From positions 1 to 23,401 of IMG/VR virus record IMGVR_UViG_3300034374_008633: a stretch of DNA of 23,401 nucleotides, one strand, 5' to 3'. Positions 3,307 through 7,470 of this stretch are shown here, piece by piece (position 1 is the first letter of the stretch; each line of letters opens with the position of its first letter). The translations under genes were made by a program, and so were the position numbers. Source of the stretch: a virus. The notes under the pieces were generated by a model. The model saw only the letters and a program-made list of their open reading frames with translations. It was not told the origin of the DNA and did no database searches.

Positions 3307-4818
3307 ATGCCGCTACTGACTAGAAAGAAGCAACTTGTGCTCAAGGAAGAGTACAGCGCCGGTGTCTTCACCGGAAACCTCGAGACCGCGGCCGATGCCG
3401 CGATGCTCGTTTTCGATGCCCAGCTCAACCCCGAGGTCGAGCTCCTGGACCGCGACTTCATCCGGGACTCCATCTCCCCGCTGAAGCAGGCTCCGGCCCA
3501 GAAGACTGCGAGCCTGACCTTCACCACTGAGATGATCGGCACGGTGGCCGGCACGTTCGCTGCCGGCGAGCCCGTGTGGGCGCGCATCCTCAAGGCTTCC
3601 GGTTTCCGGTCCGCCGTCACCGCGAGTGCCACGATCGGCGCCTTTGCTGTTGACGGTCCCTTCCGTCACGGCGAAATCGTTACGAACGACACTGGTGGAC
3701 ACCAGGCCCGCGTTATGCACGACTGCCATAACGGGGACACGGTGATCTATCTTGAGATCATCGACGCCAGCTTCACCAACGGCGCGATTACTGGTGGGTC
3801 CACCGGAGCCAAGGCGACCATCTCGTCGCTGGACACGGAGATTGGATACACCTACTACCCGATCAGCCGCACGGTCAACACCCTTACTGTGACTACGACT
3901 GCCAGCCTTGCCGCCGGCGACGTGGTTGAGGTGCAGACCTCCGCTGGGGCCTCGATCGGCCGCGCTATTGTGGTTGAGGCCGCCTCCTCCGGTGCTACCT
4001 CGGTGGACGTTGAGTTCTTCCGTGGCTACGCCTCGAACGTTGGAACCGACACCCTTCACAAGGTCACGGCCGGAGCTCCCGGATCCTCGATCGGCACGAT
4101 CACCGCGAACTCCTATTCTCAGAACTCCACGGTTTCGGCCAGCCTGTTTGAGGACGGCCTGAAGACCACCATGAACGCGGCGCGTGCTCAGGTGGTGTTC
4201 AGCGCGGAGGTGAACCGGCCGATGAACATCCAGGCTACCTTCCAGGGTCGCCTCGATACCGCTTCGCCCAGCGCCTCCGGTGGTACTGGTGACCGCCCGA
4301 TGCTGAGCGGCATCAGCTACAACCTGACGACCCCGCCCCTGTTCGAGAGCAGCGCGATGACTATCGCTCGTAACGACTCGGCCAATGACGGCCTTGACGC
4401 TATCGAGCCCTGCATCACCTCGATCTCGATCGACACGGGAAACAACCTTGTGCAGCGCCAGTGCGCCGGCGCCGACGAGGGCCTTGAGGAGTTCATCATT
4501 ACGGGCCGCGACGGCACCGTTTCGATGGACCCCGAGGCGACGCTTGAGAACGACTTCGGTTGGCTTGACAGCCTTCTCGAGTCGGAGGTTGTCCGCATGG
4601 GATTCACCATCGGCAGCACGCTGGGCAACAAGTTCTACTTCACGATGCCCGGCCTTCAGCCGACGCAGGCGAACTCCACGGACCGTGACGGCGTGTTCGC
4701 CCGTGACGTCCAGATGCGTCTCACCGGCGGCGACATGCACAACCTTGGCGGGGCGTCGGTGACGATCCCCGCGACTGGCGGCGATAACGAAGTCGTTATC
4801 ACCTATCTCACTGCCTGA
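3307..4818 (+). CDS. Major tail tube protein, copy 1
   Basis: This encodes 503 residues, with AGAGG 6 nt before the ATG. Tube subunits stack as hexameric rings around the DNA channel. The N-terminal block (MPLLTRKKQL and LLDRDFIRDSISPLKQ at 46-61) and the C-terminal half (about 275-503, with GGTGDRPMLSG, RQCAGADEG, MPGLQ and TGGD) are shared with the next gene. Between them, about residues 105-265 form an inserted beta-rich region with Gly turns (GGSTGAKATISS at 163-174), probably a surface-exposed domain decorating the tail. Simple tube proteins are about 150-250 residues, so this one is enlarged mainly by that insertion. The gene is followed by a strong hairpin. Confidence 0.8.
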   Translation: MPLLTRKKQLVLKEEYSAGVFTGNLETAADAAMLVFDAQLNPEVELLDRDFIRDSISPLKQAPAQKTASLTFTTEMIGTVAGTFAAGEPVWARILKASGFRSAVTASATIGAFAVDGPFRHGEIVTNDTGGHQARVMHDCHNGDTVIYLEIIDASFTNGAITGGSTGAKATISSLDTEIGYTYYPISRTVNTLTVTTTASLAAGDVVEVQTSAGASIGRAIVVEAASSGATSVDVEFFRGYASNVGTDTLHKVTAGAPGSSIGTITANSYSQNSTVSASLFEDGLKTTMNAARAQVVFSAEVNRPMNIQATFQGRLDTASPSASGGTGDRPMLSGISYNLTTPPLFESSAMTIARNDSANDGLDAIEPCITSISIDTGNNLVQRQCAGADEGLEEFIITGRDGTVSMDPEATLENDFGWLDSLLESEVVRMGFTIGSTLGNKFYFTMPGLQPTQANSTDRDGVFARDVQMRLTGGDMHNLGGASVTIPATGGDNEVVITYLTA

Positions 4819-4864: not shown

Positions 4865-6577
4865 ATGCCGCTGCTTAGCCGCAAAAAACAACTTACTTTC
4901 GTTGAGGAGCTGGGTCCCAAGAAGATCACCGGCTTCTACGACCCCGCGAGTCCTGGTAGCCCCACTCCGGATTCGCCGCTGACGACGCCGCAGTTTGCTC
5001 AGAACCTTGTGTTCGATGCGAGCTTCACTACTGACGTCGAGCTTCTGGACCGTGACTTCATCCGCGACTCGATCTCGCCGCTGAAGCAAATTTCCGGAGC
5101 GCGCACGGCGACGCTTGCATTTACTTGCGAGCTTACGCCGCGAGCAACTGACACCACCCTGGGTGTGAAGTCCGAGCTCCCCTACTCGCAGGCGATCAAG
5201 TCCTGCGGGATGGCCGAGAAGCGTACTGGCTTCCGCATGGACATTAGCGGAGCCACATGGTCAAACCTTGGGTCGTCAACCATCCGCAAGTTCTACGCTG
5301 GCGAGATGGTTGAGGTTTTCAACACGGTGCCGGCCAGCGTCGGGTTTGGCTTCATCATCAAAGACGTCAGCGAGGGAGAGGACTACCTCTATATTCACAG
5401 GGACTCCCAGGATGCAAGGCTTGAAGGCCAGTCCCCTTGGAGTGGCACTCCGAATACTGGATGGTCCATAGAGGGTCAGAGCTCTGGCGCCAAGGTGACC
5501 TTTGCCGATGGTGCGCCTGCCCCAGAGGATGTGGTGTGGGCCTACCACCCGACCACGTCGCCGCTGATGAAGTCGCACGTCACCGGCACGCTGAGCGGGT
5601 CTCTTAGCGAAGGCGATGTCATCGCCTTCCAGGACGCCAGCACCGCGGCCGAGTCCGCGCGTGCCCGAGTCCGCGTTTACAGCTCAGCCGATGGAGCTAT
5701 CTGGTATGAGCTGATCCGTGGCGAGCCCGCCTATGACGATGAGGTTTGGCTGTGCTCTGAGGATGGCACCAAGTCGGATACGGCGCTTGCGGTCATTGGG
5801 GTCAGCACGACTCTGGACATGACCAACAGCGACCCTATTCCCCCTGCGTATTTCGCGTCTGGGGACTCGATGGCGGCCAGCATGTTCGAGGATGGCATCA
5901 AGTCGACGATGCTGGGGGCCCGCGGAACGTTCACGATGAACTGCGAGATCAACCAGCCCGTCGGCCTCGCCTTCACCTTCAGCGGGTGCCTGGACTCCAG
6001 CGCCCCGGATGACGATGGGGGAACGGGTGACTACCCCATGCTTAGCGGCGTGGACTACAACCTGGAAACTCCCGCTCTGTTTGGAACCCAGAGCGTCACG
6101 ATTCGGAAGACTGGAGGCACCACCGACAGCTCGTCCGGTGTTGCGCTGGCCCAGCCCCTGTGCTTGACCTCTATGACGATCGACATCGGCAACGAGGTTA
6201 CGGCCCGGCAGTGCGCCGGCGAGACTGAGGGCATCGCTGAGTACGTCATCTCCAACCGTGCGGGATCCGTCACGATCAACCCGGAGGCGACCAACGAGGC
6301 CGACATCCAGTTCTTCGAGGGGCTTACTGAGGGGGATCTGTTCCGAATCGACTTCACCGTGGGGGACACCTACGGCAAGCGGTTCCACATCCAGATGCCC
6401 GGACTTCAGCTCGAGTCGATGACTTCTGGAGACCGTGACGGTACTCTTGTGAAGGACATGACTTTCCGCATGACCGGCGGAGATTATGCCCTTGACGGAC
6501 CTGCGCCGAACATTCCCAGCTTCGGCGGCGACAACGAGCTGATTATTATTGCGGAAGACCGCATAGCCAGCGCGTGA
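4865..6577 (+). CDS. Tail tube protein, copy 2 (paralogue of copy 1)
   Basis: This encodes 570 residues. It shares with the preceding gene the start MPLL(S/T)RKKQL, the exact 16-residue block LLDRDFIRDSISPLKQ (60-75 here), and the C-terminal landmarks GGTGDYPMLSG, RQCAGETEG, NPEAT, MPGLQ, DRDG and TGGD, in the same order. It has a longer N-terminal loop (about 18-48, Pro/Ser/Thr-rich) and a different central insertion (about 110-340), which again contains an SSGAKVTF-type turn. The two genes are therefore an old tandem duplication with strongly diverged exposed regions. It may form a minority ring type, the tip end of the tube, or a second major tube subunit; the sequence does not say which. 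Confidence 0.78.
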   Translation: MPLLSRKKQLTFVEELGPKKITGFYDPASPGSPTPDSPLTTPQFAQNLVFDASFTTDVELLDRDFIRDSISPLKQISGARTATLAFTCELTPRATDTTLGVKSELPYSQAIKSCGMAEKRTGFRMDISGATWSNLGSSTIRKFYAGEMVEVFNTVPASVGFGFIIKDVSEGEDYLYIHRDSQDARLEGQSPWSGTPNTGWSIEGQSSGAKVTFADGAPAPEDVVWAYHPTTSPLMKSHVTGTLSGSLSEGDVIAFQDASTAAESARARVRVYSSADGAIWYELIRGEPAYDDEVWLCSEDGTKSDTALAVIGVSTTLDMTNSDPIPPAYFASGDSMAASMFEDGIKSTMLGARGTFTMNCEINQPVGLAFTFSGCLDSSAPDDDGGTGDYPMLSGVDYNLETPALFGTQSVTIRKTGGTTDSSSGVALAQPLCLTSMTIDIGNEVTARQCAGETEGIAEYVISNRAGSVTINPEATNEADIQFFEGLTEGDLFRIDFTVGDTYGKRFHIQMPGLQLESMTSGDRDGTLVKDMTFRMTGGDYALDGPAPNIPSFGGDNELIIIAEDRIASA

Positions 6578-6601: not shown

Positions 6602-7021
6602 ATGATCGCACTCGATCCGCGCCAAACGCGCAACTACATCCTTGAGGCTGACCGGGAGCTCCCCGAGGATCAGCAGACCATCTTCAAGCTGAAGGATCTG
6701 GATGAGGGGACCCTCATCCGGCTTATGGACTCCATCGAGGTGACTCGAGGGGACGACGGCGAGGCTCGCATCTCGAGCGGTGGTATGGGCACCCGTGTCT
6801 ATACCATCGTTCAGGCGGGTCTCGTCGGGTGGAGGAACCTGCGCGACGGCGCCGGCAACTCTATCCCGTTCCATAAGAACGAGGTGACCAACAAGATCGA
6901 CGACGATCTTCTGGCTCGCCTTCCTTGGACTGCCAAGATGGAGCTGGCGAACGCCATTGAGGCGGGAGCCAAGCTGACGGAGGAGCAAGAGGAAAAGTCC
7001 GAGCCGTCGCCCGAGGATTGA
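6602..7021 (+). CDS. Tail assembly chaperone (lambda gpG-like)
   Basis: This encodes 139 residues; lambda gpG is 140. Gene G-type chaperones bind the tape measure protein and recruit tube subunits, and they do not stay in the virion. The N-terminus (MIALDPRQTRNYILEADREL) and the LKDLDEGTLIRLMDSIEVT segment fit a mixed alpha/beta chaperone fold. The C-terminus is highly acidic (TEEQEEKSEPSPED). It sits between the tube and tape measure genes, the standard place. No Shine-Dalgarno precedes the ATG: the 24-nt gap is pyrimidine-rich. The gene is in the same frame as the preceding tube gene, separated from it by one TGA. A -1 slip at 6991-6997 joins it to the next ORF. Confidence 0.8.
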   Translation: MIALDPRQTRNYILEADRELPEDQQTIFKLKDLDEGTLIRLMDSIEVTRGDDGEARISSGGMGTRVYTIVQAGLVGWRNLRDGAGNSIPFHKNEVTNKIDDDLLARLPWTAKMELANAIEAGAKLTEEQEEKSEPSPED

Positions 7022-7470
7022 CGGAAGAGGGGATGCCTGATTGTCCCCGATCCTGTGGAGGACCCAGGGCAGATTTGGGCAGGTTGCCTGAATCTGCCCT
7101 GGCCGTGCGCGAGAGACTCGGGTGCGATAGTGATTGTGCTGTCCCCTACTACACGATCACCTGCCCACGCTGCGGTGGCGTGGGGTGCGATTACAAAGAT
7201 TGCACGGGCGGCGTGAGCCGCGACGGGAGCCTGGCTATGTCCAGGTGCCCAACATCACAACAAGGACTCTGGATGGCGCCGGCTCTGCGGGCGTACTTCA
7301 GAATGAAGAACTTGGGAACGCTACCTGTTCCTGGCGGGACGCTCGACCAGTCGGCCGCATGGCTGCGCTTCGTCGACATCTTTGAGGAAGAGACTGCGAT
7401 TGCCAAGCGCGAGAAGGATGAGGCTGAGTCCAAGAAGGCGAAGGCTCTCAACAAGCGCCGGGGGAGATAA
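6602..7470 (+). CDS. Predicted -1 frameshift fusion chaperone (lambda gpGT-like)
   Basis: Reading frame 0 to codon AAG 6995-6997 (residue 132) and then the -1 frame from GTC 6997-6999 gives a 289-residue product; lambda gpGT is 279. The junction is QEEK-VRAVARGLTEEG. Lambda makes G and GT in a fixed ratio through a slip at GGGAAAG near the end of G; here the heptamer is GGAAAAG in the matching place. The T half would bring a Cys-rich, probably metal-binding domain and a basic C-terminus into contact with the tape measure protein. The fusion is inferred from sequence. Confidence 0.72.
6979..7024 (+). promoter_or_regulatory. Programmed -1 frameshift signal
   Basis: Three elements line up. GGAGGAG at 6979-6985 is an SD-like stimulator 5 nt before the slippery site. 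G-GAA-AAG at 6991-6997 has the frame-0 codons GAA AAG, which can re-pair as GGA AAA after a -1 slip; only the middle P-site position needs a G-U pair. A stem CCGTC/GACGG (7004-7008 with 7020-7024, plus a G-U pair) starts after a 6-nt spacer. The frame-0 stop at 7019-7021 lies inside this stem. The spacing matches known bacterial and phage -1 frameshift sites. Confidence 0.72.
7018..7470 (+). CDS. T-like chaperone extension with Cys-rich domain
   Basis: This is 150 codons from TTG 7018 (TTGA overlap) or 145 from ATG 7033. Both starts have poorly placed ribosome sites, and the frame is open upstream through the slip site, so it is probably made mainly as the C-terminal half of the fusion. Counting from 7018, cysteines fall at 9, 13, 36, 40, 49, 52, 57, 62 and 77: CX3C, CX3C and CX2CX4CX4C around CPRCGGVGC, which resembles a zinc ribbon or DnaJ-type zinc motif. 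The second half (LPVPGGTLDQSAAWL, then a Glu/Lys-rich helix ending KALNKRRGR) matches the helical, basic ends of T-type tail chaperones. A 17-bp hairpin lies in its first part. Confidence 0.7.
   Translation: MTEEGMPDCPRSCGGPRADLGRLPESALAVRERLGCDSDCAVPYYTITCPRCGGVGCDYKDCTGGVSRDGSLAMSRCPTSQQGLWMAPALRAYFRMKNLGTLPVPGGTLDQSAAWLRFVDIFEEETAIAKREKDEAESKKAKALNKRRGR
7064..7102 (+). other. 17-bp intragenic hairpin in the T-like ORF
   Basis: CCAGGGCAGATT (7064-7075) and AATCTGCCCTGG (7091-7102) are perfect reverse complements. The stem continues inward with U-G, G-U and three G-C or C-G pairs to close a 5-nt loop AGGTT (7081-7085), giving 17 consecutive pairs in RNA. It lies 66 nt downstream of the slippery heptamer, inside coding sequence, with no T-run after it. 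Confidence 0.85.

Follow-up and report, generated by a model that had tools for sequence, protein, structure and literature searches.

The question raised by this locus is whether two open reading frames (ORFs) that overlap in the -1 relation, directly before a tape measure gene, are expressed as a G/GT pair such as that of phage lambda. The DNA analyzed (hereafter the window) is an IMG/VR virus record of 23401 bases, and its tail genes follow the order tube, G, T, and tape measure (Table 1). G/GT frameshifting is classical, and a low-level G-T shift is widely conserved in long-tailed phages (PMC5009743). Comparison with related loci indicates that the window very probably contains a programmed -1 frameshift site in a siphovirus tail-assembly-chaperone gene of the lambda G/GT-like kind. 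The site would belong to an ordinary frameshift class of a known kind; its unusual part, real as judged from the sequences compared, is a lineage-specific non-canonical heptamer.

Table 1. Features of the G/T junction and neighboring tail genes in the window
Feature	Position	Strand	Basis
Tail tube-like protein, upstream of G	4865..6577	+	Phage_tube_2 2.5e-5 (under the curated cut-off); phrog_290 6e-17
G-like tail assembly chaperone ORF (putative), 139 aa, frame 0, stop TGA 7019-7021	6602..7021	+	ORF list, homology, gene position
Segment shared by frame 0 and the open -1 frame	6961..7021	+	sequence
Shine-Dalgarno-like GGAGGAG	6979..6985	+	sequence
Slippery heptamer G_GAA_AAG, in phase	6991..6997	+	sequence; identical in L001
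T-like extension, -1 frame, 157 aa after slip, Cys-rich	6997..7470	+	alignment with relatives
Short stem CCGUC(G)/(U)GACGG, 5-6 bp, containing the frame-0 stop	7004..7024	+	sequence
18-bp hairpin CCAGGGCAGATTTGGGCA-GGT-TGCCTGAATCTGCCCTGG, 3-nt loop, inside T	7064..7102	+	folding; kept in L001
Tape measure protein, 1953 aa	7470..13331	+	PhageMin_Tail E=7e-24; PHROG tape measure families

Reading frames and slippery heptamer

Analysis of the reading frames bore out both the -1 overlap and the product sizes close to those of lambda G and GT that had been noted in a preliminary description of the window. An open -1 frame spans 6961-7470, ending where the T stop codon overlaps the ATG of the tape measure gene, and the predicted GT fusion of 289 aa would consist of 132 G residues followed by 157 from T. 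The likeness to lambda G/GT extends to the location before the tape measure gene, the -1 direction, and the shift near the 3′ end of G. On the other hand, and unlike the lambda proteins, window G and T do not match lambda-type chaperone profiles, and window T is Cys-rich. Comparison of G and T with PHROGs and Pfam profiles gave no PHROG match and no above-threshold Pfam match; the locus thus contributes a well-supported G/GT frameshift pair that lies outside the known chaperone profiles. AlphaFold models of G (pLDDT 37) and T (pLDDT 46) were too poor to use. Further upstream, the tube-like gene at 4865-6577 has an adjacent tail tube-like paralog at 3307-4818, the two being 34% identical over their length.

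Near the end of G, frame 0 reads CAA GAG GAA AAG TCC GAG CCG TCG CCC GAG GAT TGA, with the heptamer GGAAAAG in the correct phase (GAG GAA AAG), as previously described. Also as described, this heptamer departs from that of lambda (G_GGA_AAG), from which it differs by one base, and it requires a G-U pair in the P site: the predicted re-pairing is from GAA to GGA with one G-U in the P site, and from AAG to AAA, a cognate codon, in the A site. The heptamer does not conform to the canonical X_XXY_YYZ pattern. In the reading frames of the window, GGAAAAG occurs in phase once in 7553 codons, and canonical or two-four motifs are found in phase 30 times in the same 7553 codons (~0.4% per codon), the chance of a slippery-type motif of any kind within a 20-codon overlap being p~0.08. 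Codon resampling of the peptide encoded here is expected to generate the heptamer in 11% of cases. Local anatomy alone is therefore suggestive rather than decisive for the frameshift reading and, because the motif by itself is a p~0.08 event, the claim is carried by the comparative evidence. A sequencing error was rejected as the origin of GGAAAAG, since its bases are identical in the near relative L001, described below.

A literature search for GGAAAAG and frameshifting returned nothing relevant. A similar motif is GGAAAAA, tentatively proposed for the Paenibacillus larvae phages LincolnB and Wanderer (PMC6256562), which is likewise of the XXYYYY type and located in tail chaperone genes but ends in A. 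According to the PRFect description, a canonical heptamer is common among G/GT frameshifts without being obligatory, and the slippery motifs considered there include a 'twofour' class (PMC10885494), similarly of the XXYYYY type and in tail chaperone genes, in which GGAAAA would fall judging by the name of the motif.

Conservation of the G/T junction in related loci

Queries of IMG/VR with single proteins (G, T, tape measure, and tube) retrieved one near relative containing the junction, contig L001, together with one further contig that ends at the tube gene. L001 shows 89% DNA identity to the window and an identical site, and its G-like protein is 98% identical in amino acids to window G. Window G also matched L338C_031 of Rhizobium phage L338C (28% identity over 141 aa, E=3e-6), and it gave no match when used as query against plasmids. 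Window T as query gave no match in the phage collection, and for this reason T homology rests on the alignment of Cys motifs and of a GxLPxxGG...Q region.

The other T-family loci examined, about 20 distinct ones after near-identical records were collapsed, without exception show this -1 overlap together with an in-phase heptamer of canonical type. The set comprises Rhizobium phages L338C, P11VFA, I4, and TM16, Agrobacterium phage JP1, Rhodobacter phages RcTiptonus and RcZahn, a contig from an Acetobacteraceae MAG (L021), and the IMG/VR loci L014, L020, and L022-L038, with G shortened by the contig end in L034; phage S-LBS1 was excluded from the homolog count because its tube protein alone matches the window. 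AAAAAAC is the commonest heptamer (JP1, RcZahn, TM16, and most IMG/VR loci), the others being GGGAAAC (L338C, P11VFA, I4, and L020), AAAAAAG (RcTiptonus and L021), AAAAAAA (L025 and L026), and TTTAAAA (L014), whereas GGAAAAG is confined to the window and L001. The Rhizobium phages L338C, RHph_I4, and P11VFA and the Rhodobacter phages RcZahn and RcTiptonus thus resemble the window in the T Cys motifs, the -1 overlap, and its position, and differ from it in their canonical heptamers (GGGAAAC, AAAAAAC, or AAAAAAG) and in lacking extra T segments present in the window, one of which forms the 18-bp hairpin. Two of these heptamers have been described in Caulobacter phages, AAAAAAC in phiCbK and GGGAAAC in Colossus (PMC3556154).

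The presence of the overlap and of an in-phase heptamer at the same place in about 20 loci strongly supports the reading of the two ORFs as a -1 frameshift G/GT pair, and no homolog without a slippery site was found among them. Conservation of the three elements (Shine-Dalgarno-like sequence, heptamer, and stem), proposed in the preliminary description as a check, was partial: the position of the in-phase heptamer is kept and structured RNA follows it in the relatives, but GGAAAAG itself is not shared beyond L001, and neither the Shine-Dalgarno-like sequence nor the strength of the window stem found backing (see below).

The sequences around the slip point also bear on how T begins. The conserved T N-terminus (e.g. 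LRRGVAAIRLMPERxC) starts directly after the heptamer, the corresponding sequence in the window being VRAVARGLTEEGMPDC. In both the window and the RcZahn/TM16 group, 15 residues separate the slip codon from the first Cys. Six loci (L014, L015, L024, L035, L036, and L038) have no ATG, GTG, or TTG in the T frame before the first conserved Cys residues, so that T would hardly be made whole from a start of its own there. Taken together, the N-terminus beginning at the heptamer and the lack of starts in these six loci indicate that T is arranged for translation as a continuation of G.

In the deposited records of these Rhizobium and Rhodobacter phages, the fusion is not annotated. The T annotations of L338C (L003:6546-6803) and RcTiptonus (L015:2133-2378) begin at internal starts, which removes the conserved N-terminal part with its Cys residues. 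In RcZahn, for which its authors saw no clear frameshift signal (PMC8601537), an in-phase A_AAA_AAC lies 12 nt before the G stop (L016:1998-2004; MW677529.1, about 23927). Unannotated -1 frameshift sites were also noted in deposited genomes of Agrobacterium and Rhizobium phages (L006:6300, L003:6414, L005:6265, and L017:1998). Alphaproteobacterial phages and their metagenomic relatives thus have in common a T family rich in Cys, whose frameshift sites, that of RcZahn included, have gone unannotated. Because one gene junction carries a canonical heptamer in some lineages and a non-canonical one in the window lineage, it offers a natural comparison for asking how much slipperiness tail assembly needs.

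RNA elements around the heptamer

The preliminary description had regarded the site as a complete cassette in which a Shine-Dalgarno-like sequence and a stem might compensate for the weaker heptamer. The elements are present as described, including the 6-nt spacer (6998-7003) and the stem (arms at 7004-7009 and 7019-7024) with the frame-0 UGA (7019-7021) in its 3′ arm; the compensation was not established, because the Shine-Dalgarno-like sequence is not conserved and is likely a by-product of Glu codons, and the stem is at chance level and dependent on folding boundaries. The Shine-Dalgarno-like duplex (-9.5 kcal/mol) is in the top 3% of window positions. Codon resampling of the peptide AKLTEEQEEKS is expected to yield GGAGG in 78% and GGAGGAG in 68% of cases, which makes GGAGGAG a likely by-product of Thr-Glu-Glu codons, and no comparable sequence was found in the relatives. 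The gap to the heptamer is 7 nt when the motif is counted as GGAGG and 5 nt when it is counted as GGAGGAG, slightly shorter than the published optimum: for stimulatory Shine-Dalgarno sequences, a position 8-11 nt ahead of the slip site has been reported, with possible attenuation by nearer ones (PMC6321510).

The stem of the window is no better than shuffled sequence (z = -0.43), and its pairing probability varies between 0 and 1 with the folding boundaries. Its 5′ arm coincides in position with the hairpins of the relatives. A stimulatory RNA structure 5-9 nt downstream is frequent in this frameshift class and is not obligatory. Among 19 relatives, a 50-nt segment beginning 5 nt past the heptamer shows unusual stability when set against the remainder of its own locus (median percentile 0.04; Fisher 3e-11, the loci being related). 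A stem at columns 13-24/32-44 of a gapless 14-sequence alignment, with the structure taken from one of the aligned sequences, outperformed shuffled and slid controls; its covariation score was 0.247 vs 0.153 (0 of 500 shuffles), in a measure inflated by relatedness. Both-sided changes occur at columns 15-42, 18-39, and 21-36, and RNAalifold retains only a 4-bp core of this stem. The unusual stability of the RNA after the heptamer, together with some covariation, makes a downstream stimulator plausible across the T family, the structure in the window itself being a candidate. For L338C and I4, folding predicts a three-way junction, which is not claimed as conserved because L020 keeps it only in part, with the 8-bp hairpin present and the closing helix lost.

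A further structure, missing from the preliminary description, is the 18-bp hairpin inside T, which formed stably in all of the folding windows that included it. It differs in L001 by two bases, one converting a G-U into an A-U pair and the other located in the loop. The segment appears as an insertion relative to other T proteins (an alignment gap), and a search for other copies found none besides that of the near relative. In stability, the 110 nt following the heptamer rank within the top 1% of the window, and a closing helix (7008-7015/7117-7124), beginning 10 nt past the heptamer, encloses the hairpin for some folding boundaries only. A role of the hairpin in frameshifting is speculative, since it starts 66 nt downstream of the slip site and since equal stability is reached in 2% of codon resamplings of the peptide it encodes.

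Proposed mechanism and alternative readings

Under programmed frameshifting, most ribosomes would end G at TGA 7019, and a minority would slip back one base on G_GAA_AAG, with the A-site Lys-tRNA moving from AAG to AAA and the P-site Glu-tRNA from GAA to GGA through the G-U pair; the slipped ribosomes would read on into T and produce the 289-aa GT fusion. By analogy with lambda, G would coat the tape measure protein and the T part would recruit tube subunits. The frames, the phase of the heptamer, the conserved arrangement, and the onset of T homology at the slip point are visible in the sequences; the slippage itself, its efficiency, the stimulators acting on it, and the chaperone function of the products are what we infer from them.

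A translation of T as a separate protein, with no fusion and with GGAAAAG as the remnant of a lost site, seems improbable. The preliminary description saw no convincing start for the downstream ORF; candidates do exist, both weak, at ATG 7033 behind GGAAGAGGGG and at TTG 7018, which overlaps the TGA and might act by stop-start coupling. This reading would fit the fact that the canonical heptamer is missing from the window lineage alone, as well as the annotation of RcZahn T from an ATG overlapping the G stop. However, followed upstream from T, the -1 frame is uninterrupted past the heptamer; the stretch encoded between the heptamer and ATG 7033 can be aligned with the conserved T N-terminus, at an equal distance from the first Cys; and in several relatives this region offers no usable start. 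The identity of the window and L001 from 6971 to 7076, a 106-nt run spanning the heptamer, also argues against a lost site. In G, 24 synonymous changes separate the window from L001, none of them after 6970; T has 10 in 156 codons, and the tube and tape measure genes about 0.29 per codon. The neighboring DNA has other identical runs (106 and 116 nt), and the low divergence at the site could reflect either recombination or RNA-level constraint.

The preferred reading of programmed frameshifting has a variant, not exclusive of it, in which a single tRNA slips on A_AAG, poor P-site pairing is tolerated, and the large downstream fold including the hairpin at 7064-7102 drives the shift. We consider it possible although doubtful. 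In favor of the variant and of the preferred reading alike, A_AAG is the best Z_ZZN motif in E. coli, with up to 5.6% frameshifting in the presence of a strong stimulator; against the preferred reading, Sharma et al. found that tetramer motifs without one hardly shift (PMC4066793). A-site re-pairing of Lys-tRNA from AAG to AAA would be shared with the tetramer shifting of IS elements (PMC5009743, PMC4066793), in contrast with which the P-site codon of the window can also re-pair. The stability of the 110 nt and the closing helix would favor such a fold, while the dependence of that helix on folding boundaries, the distance of the hairpin from the site, and the resampling result weigh against it. 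Decay of a canonical heptamer to the weaker G_GAA_AAG, compensated by GGAGGAG and by the T-insertion hairpin through a larger fold closing near the slip site, appears unlikely. As for transcriptional slippage yielding a fusion mRNA, a run of A is present at the site but consists of just four, whereas known slippage runs are far longer, which renders this origin of the fusion negligible in probability.

Among the loci considered, chaperone profiles were matched only in S-LBS1, whose sole link to the window is its tube protein and which has a G-like ORF (L007:5574-5954) annotated as an ABC-transporter ATPase. This ORF matches tail-chaperone PHROGs, with DUF1799 also matched in the locus; A_AAA_AAC lies just before the stop of the ORF, and a 13-bp hairpin is located 5 nt downstream.
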